Part shown: positions 1,651 to 15,601 of the stretch, one piece after another
Position numbering within the stretch: the first letter of the stretch is position 1
Layout of the letters: every line of letters starts with the position of its first letter
Source of the DNA: a virus
Reading direction: 5' to 3' (one strand)
Length of the DNA: 20,201 nt
Virus record (IMG/VR): IMGVR_UViG_3300031957_002075
Span: 1 to 20,201 of that record
Position numbers and translations under genes: made by a program
The notes under the pieces: generated by a model
Seen by the model: the letters and a program-made list of their open reading frames with translations, nothing else
The model's database searches: none
Told to the model about the DNA's origin: nothing

Positions 1651-2364
1651 GTGCAATACTGTTTCCATCATATACCAAAGACGGCGGGCAGTAGTTTACA
1701 ACTGAGATTGTCACACAGAGAACATGTAGGACAGTTACCAAAAGGCTCTACCATGATTGTGTATCCGTTGTACGACGATATGAGATTCTATAGAGTGAGT
1801 CACGACCCGGAATTCGATGCCAGTAAGCCTATCAAAGAAGCGTTCTTACGCACATACAATAATCCTAAGTCCCTTGGCCATGCATCTATCGTGTGTGGAC
1901 ATTCCACTACCATGCACCAGGATGGCAAACACTACACATGGTTCAGACATCCTCTGAAGAGAGACATATCACATTTCAACTATGATTCTAAATTTAGCAA
2001 CGAGGAGTCGACAGACTTCGCCACACACCTGACACTGATGAACGGAAACTTTCTAGTACTATGGCTGTACAGCAAATATTGTTCTCTTTCGGCGACATCA
2101 GACATCAAAGAGAAATACGATGTTGTAAGAAAGACACTGAAAGAAAAATCTGTAAAAGTTTATGACTCTGATGATTTTGAAAACTCATGGACCGAGATAG
2201 CCGACGAGCTGAAAGTTGAAGTAGAACCGAGACTGAACTCCAATGAGGGCGGCAAGGCCTATGAGCAACTCATAAATTATTCCGACATGACAGATGAATT
2301 TAAAATCTGGCACAGGAGTTACAACCACTACGATTATCTCCTCTACGAAGAATTCTGTACGTAG
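1651..2364 (+). CDS. Sulfotransferase family protein (PAPS-dependent)
   Basis: 237 residues. The N-terminus carries the 5'-phosphosulfate-binding loop 'HHIPKTAGSSL' (residues 6-16), the hallmark of the Sulfotransfer_2/carbohydrate sulfotransferase group. The 3'-phosphate-binding motif is at residues 96-111, with Arg99 and Ser107 spaced eight apart as in PAPS enzymes ('FRHPLKRDISHFNY'). The enzyme should transfer sulfate from PAPS to a hydroxyl or amine; the acceptor is unknown. The GTG start places the PAPS loop right at the N-terminus, as usual, and fits the late promoter box five bases upstream. No Shine-Dalgarno is visible. It sits as a single-gene insert between the gp23 terminator and a hairpin at 2405, which suggests an acquired accessory gene. 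A role in modifying host or virion glycans is inference. Confidence 0.88.
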   Translation: MQYCFHHIPKTAGSSLQLRLSHREHVGQLPKGSTMIVYPLYDDMRFYRVSHDPEFDASKPIKEAFLRTYNNPKSLGHASIVCGHSTTMHQDGKHYTWFRHPLKRDISHFNYDSKFSNEESTDFATHLTLMNGNFLVLWLYSKYCSLSATSDIKEKYDVVRKTLKEKSVKVYDSDDFENSWTEIADELKVEVEPRLNSNEGGKAYEQLINYSDMTDEFKIWHRSYNHYDYLLYEEFCT

Positions 2365-2433: not shown

Positions 2434-2441
2434 TCTAAATA
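2434..2441 (+). promoter_or_regulatory. T4-like late promoter box (TCTAAATA)
   Basis: TCTAAATA, one mismatch to TATAAATA. The predicted transcription start is about 2447, one base before a GCAA-capped hairpin, giving a leader of about 38 bases before the ATG at 2485. Confidence 0.65.
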
Positions 2442-2447
2442 AAATAC

Positions 2448-2461
2448 GATTCGCAAGAATC
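2448..2461 (+). promoter_or_regulatory. 5'-terminal GNRA hairpin of the leader RNA
   Basis: GATTC-GCAA-GAATC, a perfect five-pair stem closed by a GNRA tetraloop, starting at the predicted 5' end of the mRNA. It is followed by an unstructured CA-rich stretch and the strong Shine-Dalgarno GGGAGGT. This layout usually stabilises a message. Confidence 0.6.
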
Positions 2462-2484
2462 ACAACAACAAGGGAGGTCCAACT

Positions 2485-10466: not shown

Positions 10467-10500
10467 AAAAGGCCTTGTAGAAATACTGGGCCTTTTTTTT
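10467..10500 (+). terminator. Bidirectional terminator between convergent operons
   Basis: Stem AAAAGGCC (10467-10474) with GGCCTTTT (10489-10496), 14-base loop, T8 on the plus side. On the minus strand the stem is followed by TTTTG. It separates the plus-strand fibre gene from the minus-strand Nudix gene whose stop is at 10499-10501. Confidence 0.85.
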
Positions 10501-10927
10501 AGGTTATAAGATCTAGTATAGTCTGTAACTTGCCCTTGATGGCTTTGTTGTTCAGTGTGTTCTTCAAACCCATGTGTAGGTTCTTGGGCCAGCATTCAAA
10601 CGCAGTCCAACAGTATCCCGAATGTTCATCATTCAGTTTAGGTAAGAATTCAGTCTCTATCGCAATAAGATAAGTGTGGAAGAAAAACTTCTGATCATTT
10701 GAAGTGAACATCTCCAAGGGAATGACTTTCTTGAACTTAGGAGTATCTCCTATTTCCTCTTTGATTTCTCTCTTCAATCCTTCAAATGCTGATTCAGTGT
10801 ATTTGGCCTGGCCTCCGACCAATCCCCACATGCCCTGTGTCTTCTTGTCGGTCCTCTGCAAGAACAGGAAACGCTTGGTACCAGTTGAATAGAACAGTGC
10901 CCCTGAGCAGACTATATTTTTTTCCAT
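10499..10927 (-). CDS. Nudix hydrolase
   Basis: 142 residues with a near-perfect Nudix box GX5EX7REUXEEXGU at residues 39-61: Gly39, Glu45, Arg53, Glu54, Glu57, Glu58, Gly60; the final hydrophobic position is Asp61. Upstream, 'GMWGLVGGQ' is the usual strand-loop before the box. The family hydrolyses nucleoside diphosphates linked to another moiety (dNTPs, NDP-sugars, ADP-ribose, capped RNA); the substrate cannot be read from sequence. It lies 15 bases downstream of gp15 on the same strand but has its own sigma70-type promoter inside the end of gp15. That suggests early expression and nucleotide-pool or RNA-related duty rather than a virion role. The ATG at 10927 fits the promoter geometry. 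Confidence 0.92.
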   Translation of the reverse strand: MEKNIVCSGALFYSTGTKRFLFLQRTDKKTQGMWGLVGGQAKYTESAFEGLKREIKEEIGDTPKFKKVIPLEMFTSNDQKFFFHTYLIAIETEFLPKLNDEHSGYCWTAFECWPKNLHMGLKNTLNNKAIKGKLQTILDLIT

Positions 10928-14606: not shown

Positions 14607-15260
14607 ATGTTAATAGGCATAGTAGGTTTAATAAGTTCTGGTAAGGACACAGTCGCAGAAAGACTAGTACAAGAACATAATTTCAAAAAAGATTCATTCG
14701 CAAAAAGTTTAAAAGATGCAGTAAGTTCTATGTTCAATTGGGACAGAGAAATGCTGGAAGGCAAGACAGCCGAAAGCAGAGAATGGAGAGAACGGCCTGA
14801 TGCTTTTTGGAGTAAAAGATTTAATAAAGATGTAACACCTCGTTGGGTGCTACAACACTTTGGCACAGAAGTAATGCGTCAGAATATGCATGATGGCATA
14901 TGGATTGACAGTTGCATGGCCAGATACAAGGGTGAACCAACGGTGATATCAGATACAAGATTTGAAAATGAAATCAAGATGATCAAGGAATCCGGAGGCA
15001 ACATTATACTTGTAAAAAGAGGACAAGATCCTGATTGGTTTACAAGCTATGTTGAAGGTAATATCAAACCCTCGGGCATTCACTCTTCGGAATATGCATG
15101 GGCAAAATCAGAGTTTGATTATGTTATCAAGAACGACGGAACACTGGAAGAATTACACCAACAAGTTGACGATCTAATCGTCAGCAACAAGATCACCAAT
15201 ACGCCATCCAAGTCTACGGACACTGCCCAACCGTTGGCAATTGGCGCAAACAGTTTTTAG
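14607..15260 (+). CDS. gp1: Deoxynucleoside monophosphate kinase gp1
   Basis: 217 residues (T4 gp1: 241). Walker A loop 'GLISSGKDT' at residues 7-15 (Gly12-Lys13-Asp14-Thr15) opens the protein, with 'RWVLQHFGTEVMRQ' and 'WIDSCMARY' in the middle and 'ISDTRFENEIKMIKESGG' as the typical later block. The T4 enzyme phosphorylates dTMP, dGMP and hydroxymethyl-dCMP for DNA synthesis in the cytoplasm. The gene is preceded by a good sigma70-type promoter rather than a late box, fitting an early role. The last ~28 residues are low-complexity and lie opposite the 3' end of the minus-strand HNH-like gene, an 87-base antisense overlap. Start ATG 14607 is set by the Walker A position and promoter. Confidence 0.93.
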   Translation: MLIGIVGLISSGKDTVAERLVQEHNFKKDSFAKSLKDAVSSMFNWDREMLEGKTAESREWRERPDAFWSKRFNKDVTPRWVLQHFGTEVMRQNMHDGIWIDSCMARYKGEPTVISDTRFENEIKMIKESGGNIILVKRGQDPDWFTSYVEGNIKPSGIHSSEYAWAKSEFDYVIKNDGTLEELHQQVDDLIVSNKITNTPSKSTDTAQPLAIGANSF

Positions 15261-15533
15261 ATTAGTAGTCGCGGTATTCCTCATACTCCCATCCACAAAG
15301 AACACATCCAGTTGAGATTGTTTCTGTGCCCTGAACCCACACAGCTCACACTTCTTATGTTTCTTGTATCCGGATCTCTGCAGGGCCGTGATTCCTCCAA
15401 CTTTCTTGCCAGCTTTCTTTCTGTTGCAGGTGTCACACAGGCTACGCCAGTAGATCTTTGTTCCTTTCCTGTAAGCATAGGCACGAGGCTTTGCCTTGCA
15501 CTCCTTACACAACGGTCTGTCCTTGTATGCCAT
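15174..15533 (-). CDS. Zinc-binding HNH-like protein, catalytic His apparently lost
   Basis: 119 residues from ATG 15533, the start set by a late box five bases upstream; an in-frame ATG at 15575 would lie upstream of the predicted mRNA start. Four CxxC pairs are visible: Cys9/12, 33/36, 62/65, 96/99. The last two pairs frame 'LDVFFVDGSMRNTATTNLKT' then 'VCANCQ', which has the layout of the zinc-containing HNH fold (usually '-VHHIDG-N-NL--LC--CH'). Here the paired His are Phe-Phe (residues 78-79) and the terminal CH is CQ, so nuclease activity is doubtful. The first pairs look like an added zinc ribbon. It may be a DNA-binding or structural protein derived from an HNH endonuclease. It converges on gp1 with an 87-base overlap. 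Confidence 0.7.
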   Translation of the reverse strand: MAYKDRPLCKECKAKPRAYAYRKGTKIYWRSLCDTCNRKKAGKKVGGITALQRSGYKKHKKCELCGFRAQKQSQLDVFFVDGSMRNTATTNLKTVCANCQRLGSVRRLGWRIGDLVADD

Positions 15534-15538
15534 ACACT

Positions 15539-15546
15539 TATTTAAG
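15539..15546 (-). promoter_or_regulatory. Late promoter box (CTTAAATA, minus strand) for the HNH-like gene
   Basis: CTTAAATA on the minus strand, exactly five bases before the ATG at 15533, predicting a leaderless message. A perfect 12-base palindrome GCCTATATAGGC (15549-15560) lies just upstream. Confidence 0.6.
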
Positions 15547-15548
15547 TC

Positions 15549-15560
15549 GCCTATATAGGC
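15549..15560. other. Perfect 12-base palindrome GCCTATATAGGC
   Basis: Located two bases upstream of the minus-strand late box and about 40 bases upstream of the gp18 box, between two divergent late genes. It could be a protein-binding site or chance; no second copy was noticed. Confidence 0.4.
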
Positions 15561-15601
15561 ACCAGAAAATAGCAAGTTATATCGTAAAAACCATATGATT
15601 G

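Follow-up and report, generated by a model that had tools for sequence, protein, structure and literature searches.

The window analysed here is the whole of a 20,201-nt stretch (positions 1 to 20,201 of IMG/VR record IMGVR_UViG_3300031957_002075), a 20.2-kb piece of a T4-like phage. Its major capsid gene is followed after 83 nt by an open reading frame that the sequence-only reading took to encode a PAPS sulfotransferase. The features on which the argument rests are as follows.

395-1567, + strand: T4-like major capsid protein gene gp23 (PHROG 138, major head protein, E 2e-101)
1587-1619, + strand: intrinsic terminator of gp23, a hairpin plus U tract (predicted folding energy -19.5 kcal/mol, z -6.3; relatives have a matching hairpin and T tract)
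1638-1645, + strand: late-type promoter box TTTAAATA, lying 5 nt ahead of the GTG; mRNA predicted to have little or no leader; box kept at this position in 25 loci
1651-2364, + strand: predicted sulfotransferase gene, 237 aa, GTG start (hhalign, AF2 and Foldseek evidence below)
1666-1698, + strand: 5'-PSB, the P-loop-like PAPS motif HHIPKTAGSSL (P9, K10, T11, G13, S14 and L16 invariant, A12 and S15 at least 90% conserved in 28 sequences)
1897-1902, + strand: Gly83-His84, candidate catalytic base, invariant in 28/28
1945-1971, + strand: 3'-PSB motif, Arg99...Ser107 (R99 invariant, S107 at least 90% conserved in 28 sequences)
2374-2408, + strand: right flank of the empty site (TTTTTCCATACTCGTACCA to CGCAGACCAAAT), beginning ~10 nt past the stop codon; in L221 and L222 this sequence comes soon after the gp23 terminator
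2405-2428, + strand: hairpin 3' of the gene, arms 2405-2414/2419-2428 (RNA fold -11.3 kcal/mol, z -5.4; no U run)
2485-2718, + strand: gene for a conserved 77-aa hydrophobic (membrane-like) protein, found after both filled and empty versions of the slot

The frame at 1651-2364 is a real gene under purifying selection: frame, start and motifs are conserved across 28 aligned sequences of 44-100% identity, and dN lies well below dS (NG86 dN/dS of 0.033/0.47, 0.040/0.13 and 0.090/0.94 in example close pairs). Its motifs stand where they had been placed by eye, with HHIPKTAGSSL at residues 6-16 and Arg99 and Ser107 within WFRHPLKRDISHF. Homologues occur in ~44 IMG/VR contigs at about 42-100% identity, whereas 50,697 phage records gave no match and ~85,000 genomes, in a scan that reaches fairly close relatives only, no homologue; within the collections searched, the family is thus phage-only. 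A short form of 190 aa lacks residues 37-82, most of the variable region, and keeps every motif (L054, L055); a 190-aa form without most of that region also occurs in L195-L198. A divergent member (E 3e-30; L291:3843-4448, - strand) lies in the opposite orientation, ~390 bp beyond a gp23 of 80% identity. By gp23, the nearest isolates fall in the Phosso, PA5oct and GAP32 groups, with 73% identity to Sinorhizobium phage Phosso and 69% to Pseudomonas phage PA5oct, both jumbo phages, and the large terminase of a near-identical longer contig (G001) points to the same nearest phages.

Assignment to the sulfotransferases

With single sequences as queries, nothing turned up in Pfam, NCBIfam, PHROGs, PDB sequences or annotated phages. 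The Pfam PF03567 model matched neither the window protein nor 10 relatives, even at E 10, and a six-frame search of the contig against it was equally silent. A BrxL_N match (E 0.0086, below that model's own cut-off) is a chance hit, given the results that follow. Because ordinary searches were silent, a family alignment was built and compared with a profile of 20 Rhodobacterales Sulfotransfer_2 proteins, representatives scoring above the PF03567 cut-off. This gave a probability of 95.6% in hhalign (E 1e-8) over residues 2-201. Column-shuffled versions reached at most 1.6% (60 shuffles), the reversed alignment reached 0.2%, and, when every ORF of 150-400 aa from four related contigs was scored, nothing but the 4 copies of this gene came above 3%; overall, shuffled and unrelated controls stayed at or below 2.6%. 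The failure of single-sequence profiles, taken alone, would thus speak against the sulfotransferase call of the sequence-only reading, but profile-profile comparison and structure place the protein among the sulfotransferases.

The AlphaFold model computed from 28 sequences is confident (pLDDT 91.9, pTM 0.88) and supersedes a poor first model from 11 sequences (pLDDT 70). Its best Foldseek match in the PDB is 4NDZ, a heparan-sulfate 2-O-sulfotransferase with PAP and a heptasaccharide (E 3.5e-4, prob 1.00), followed by the bacterial sulfotransferase 3RNL from Alicyclobacillus (E 5.4e-4, 15% identity) and then by sulfotransferase S4, retinol dehydratase and SULTs; the top 18 PDB matches are all sulfotransferase-superfamily structures. 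In the viral structure library BFVD, 'Sulfotransferase family' entries came first even with the poorer model. The likeness to 2-O-sulfotransferase (4NDZ, 3F5F) is nonetheless modest, at 12% identity and a TM-score of 0.54 on the query, and that enzyme is itself a eukaryotic Golgi protein acting on heparan sulfate. Uridine kinases and PRK do turn up among the much lower Foldseek matches, as would be expected if the protein were a P-loop nucleotide kinase of similar fold, but the sulfotransferases come first with far better E-values, a 3'-PSB motif is present and a kinase-type protein of the same phages (G004 ORF 21) scores 0.7% against the sulfotransferase profile, which leaves a kinase very improbable. 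By family and fold, the protein is almost certainly a sulfotransferase.

The residues that would hold PAPS agree with this assignment. Both PAPS-binding motifs are intact, as had been claimed, with K10, T11, S14 and R99 invariant, and H108 is conserved in at least 90% of the 28 sequences. Bacterial PF03567 proteins with the motif 'HIPKTGGSS/T' (Rhodobacterales L163/L165, L168 and others) are colinear with the phage family through the 5'-PSB loop, the His region, the R-x-P-x-x-R-x-x-S 3'-PSB and the C-terminal region, Arg99...Ser107 aligning with their R-[DNH]-P-x-x-R-x-x-S motif; the phage family differs in a shorter His84-Arg99 spacing and in giving no single-sequence HMMER match. A histidine serves as catalytic base in established sulfotransferase chemistry, and His84 is the candidate for that role here. 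The protein is very compact, more so in the 190-aa form that has lost most of the variable region, and it could on that ground be a catalytically dead PAP/PAPS binder, a decoy or a regulator of host PAPS/PAP levels; yet His84 and all pocket residues are conserved, in the short form too, so we regard a dead binder as quite improbable, and judging from sequence and model the enzyme is probably active.

Profile and predicted fold thus indicate that the enzyme belongs with Sulfotransfer_2, although the plain Pfam model did not recognise it. It represents a compact sulfotransferase family new to the databases searched, of an enzyme kind already known, and one that is frequent in marine viral contigs yet invisible to Pfam, NCBIfam and PHROGs searches. 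Other phage sulfotransferases (Sulfotransfer_3 proteins and the BFVD entries) share its superfamily, but the Sulfotransfer_3 proteins belong to a different Pfam family, and those in the phage collection have no detectable sequence match to the 237-aa protein. Sulfotransfer_3 is encoded by OM43-phage metagenome genomes and by Synechococcus phage S-SRM01, and the role of phage sulfotransferases has been called unclear (PMC10580990), an open question on which the present family bears; elsewhere, modification of nucleotides or proteins has been suspected (PMC10829341). One related contig (G003) carries a second, different sulfotransferase-like gene (L026:14587-15222; Sulfotransfer_2 E 0.001, just below cut-off; motif HTPKCAGRWI).

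The slot behind gp23 and its promoters

The gene had been described as a single-gene unit with its own late box, bounded by the gp23 terminator and a second hairpin. The folding energy of the upstream hairpin, which a simple terminator scan did not flag, bears out a real terminator, the late-type box is present and a single-gene unit is supported. Downstream, the hairpin exists, but because it has no U run it is not a canonical terminator, and the scan flagged nothing at 2405-2428.

Across the family, the 45 nt upstream of the gene are of two types. The late type, with TTTAAATA 4-5 nt before GTG or ATG, occurs in 25 loci including the window, whereas a sigma70 type, TTGACT-17-TAAAAT/TATAAT at 5-8 nt before ATG, occurs in 15 loci (in one, the first hexamer is TTGGAG) and, by eye, in L016, that is, in ~16 relatives. 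The sigma70 promoter of L013 scores 10/12 in a scan in which shuffles average 0.4 sites, and neither type is accompanied by a Shine-Dalgarno sequence. Since the two types are clustered on the gene tree without forming one clade (4 changes), expression timing is probably not conserved among relatives.

Boxes of the late type, TATAAATA, AATAAATA or TTTAAATA, lie 5-8 nt before many structural-gene starts, often without a Shine-Dalgarno sequence, in six related contigs (G001-G004, G136 and G137; L021-L035, L202-L217). Of the 195 WWTAAATA boxes in six related contigs, 55 have a start codon 5-8 nt past their end, a count whose reversed-octamer control overlaps the real box and overstates the background. 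Given this spacing, leaderless late mRNAs look like a lineage-wide habit. Upstream of its Shine-Dalgarno sequence, the 77-aa gene has a leader (window 2434-2484) in which a TCTAAATA box is accompanied by a small hairpin, GATTC-GCAA-GAATC; relatives retain a hairpin whose paired bases differ (AGTTCC/GGAACT, GAGTTC/GAACTC, AGTTTC/GAAACT), which suggests compensatory change. The 77-aa protein itself matched no Pfam family above cut-off.

A survey of the gp23-downstream slot, which the sequence-only reading had proposed, upheld the usual position of the gene but not its link to the capsid. Of 43 loci whose upstream sequence is long enough to check, 41 have the gene downstream of gp23, usually at a distance of 71-93 nt and in some loci with one or two genes in between. 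Its two most divergent members (L051, L053) have no gp23 nearby and sit between a Toprim primase and a DnaB-type helicase. In three loci (L221, L222, L223) the 77-aa gene directly follows a gp23 of 96% identity, and L225, L228, L235 and L239 are further empty sites; in isolates the same slot holds a Hef-like homing endonuclease (PA5oct) or hypothetical proteins (Phosso, Vibrio phage 2.275.O). As empty sites stand beside a near-identical gp23, the gene is a movable accessory insertion. It has its own promoter, the gp23 terminator lies upstream and close relatives have empty sites; these sequence features mark it as a mobile accessory gene (a "moron") rather than one tied to the capsid.

The same observations bear on the proposal to read late expression beside the capsid gene as a sign of a virion substrate or of a role near lysis. 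A late-expressed enzyme that sulfates a virion component, be it a capsid or tail glycan or a protein, would fit the 41 loci behind gp23 and the 25 late-type boxes, and the large repetitive structural proteins encoded downstream could be glycosylated. However, ~16 relatives drive the same gene in the same slot from a sigma70-type promoter, L051 and L053 carry it in the replication region, and a nearly identical gp23 flanks the empty sites. These findings undercut the proposal, and we consider a virion substrate unlikely; capsid-gene adjacency should not be taken as a virion role. The filled and empty versions of the slot and its two alternative promoters offer natural pairs for comparison.

Neighbouring genes and the probable substrate

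The genes that accompany the sulfotransferase are often sugar-type tailoring enzymes. Between gp23 and the gene lie KdsA in L003 (DAHP_synth_1, 3.6e-70) and FkbM methyltransferases in L015 and L016; contig G003 encodes more FkbM methyltransferases and an epimerase; and in L051 and L053 the gene is preceded by a carbamoyltransferase with overlapping stop and start codons, joined in L053 by an SGNH-like protein. Their repeated company favours a glycan precursor. The protein begins directly with its first strand and has no evident signal peptide or membrane segment in its sequence, so the substrate should be cytosolic. KdsA, the FkbM methyltransferases and the carbamoyltransferase thus make a cytosolic glycan precursor more likely than a virion protein, and sulfation of a host surface glycan, which the sequence-only reading had raised, is plausible. 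As a counterpoint, neighbours vary between phages and some are not glycan genes, such as the DctP-like gene in L017, L018 and L046-L049. With guilt by association as its basis, we give the glycan precursor as substrate a little less than an even chance. The DctP-like inserts (L017:4944-5936, L018, L046:5034-5972, L047-L049) encode a protein of the TRAP solute-binding family (PF03480, E ~1e-28), apparently without a signal peptide, and stand with a gene for an unknown ~220-aa protein between gp23 and the sulfotransferase.

The carbamoyltransferase operon between primase and helicase is also what a sulfated small molecule, nucleotide, RNA or DNA base would lead one to expect, for example hypermodification alongside O-carbamoylation, and a phage-type 5-hydroxymethylcytosine carbamoyltransferase provides a precedent (PMC8670742). 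Against modification of a base, ten related contigs, one of them of 196 kb, contain no thymidylate-synthase/hydroxymethylase homologue, nor did they yield a Tet/JBP dioxygenase, in a weak search in which Tet_JBP gave no match in controls either; moreover, carbamoyltransferase genes without a link to DNA modification adjoin unrelated genes such as glycosyltransferases (PMC8670742). We judge this family of substrates improbable.

Our preferred explanation, an accessory PAPS-dependent sulfotransferase acting on a glycan precursor, has as a whole a probability of about 50%. A compact, soluble O-sulfotransferase of the Sulfotransfer_2 type, closest in fold to heparan-sulfate 2-O-sulfotransferase, would be made from a moron-like insertion that brings its own promoter and sits after the gp23 terminator, ahead of the next late gene. 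The lysine/threonine/serine loop together with Arg99 and Ser107 would hold host-supplied PAPS, and a histidine, with His84 the best candidate, would activate a substrate hydroxyl on a cytosolic glycan or a lipid-linked sugar precursor of LPS, capsule or similar. Such sulfation might change the envelope glycans of the infected cell, as a defence against superinfection, say, or against host recognition. These incomplete contigs yielded no convincing gene for PAPS synthesis, so PAPS would have to come from the host; the 196-kb contig gave no APS kinase match, and a possible APS kinase in G003 (one match above cut-off) scores better as AAA_33. To our knowledge, SAR11 lacks assimilatory sulfate reduction, and PAPS would be scarce if the host were SAR11. 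The host clues single out no group: the phage KdsA is ~60% identical to those of Pelagibacteraceae and other Alphaproteobacteria alike, and the related contigs have 33-42% GC. G003 also encodes a full-length TctA, the membrane subunit of a tripartite tricarboxylate transporter (L026:10426-11751; PF01970, E 1e-74), next to what may be a binding protein; this TctA is at best ~31% identical to alphaproteobacterial TctA.

More tentatively, and in our view with odds clearly below even, this T4-like jumbo phage lineage may carry a kit of interchangeable glycan-tailoring genes. Sulfotransferase, O-carbamoyltransferase, FkbM methyltransferase and KDO-8-P synthase would be swapped as morons behind the capsid gene or in the replication region, and replacement of a late-type by a sigma70-type promoter or the reverse, both leaderless, would reset when the sulfotransferase is made. 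If so, envelope glycans would be sulfated early or late in infected cells, depending on the type of phage.

Several other genes of these phages deserve mention. A conserved ~207-aa MptE-like protein (weak Pfam match; L008:1296-1925 and equivalents), encoded a few genes upstream of gp23, is possibly another glycan-related enzyme. In a T4-like phage (G002, L021:11987 to L022:7396), a 15-kb cluster combines a carbamoyltransferase, a methyltransferase, SGNH-like proteins and several radical SAM/SPASM proteins. Among the structural genes of the window lie genes for a small Cys-rich, possibly HNH-type protein (15174-15575; weak match only), a NUDIX hydrolase (10499-10927; PF00293, E 2.5e-13) and a deoxynucleotide monophosphate kinase (14607-15260; PF21448, E 2.5e-15).
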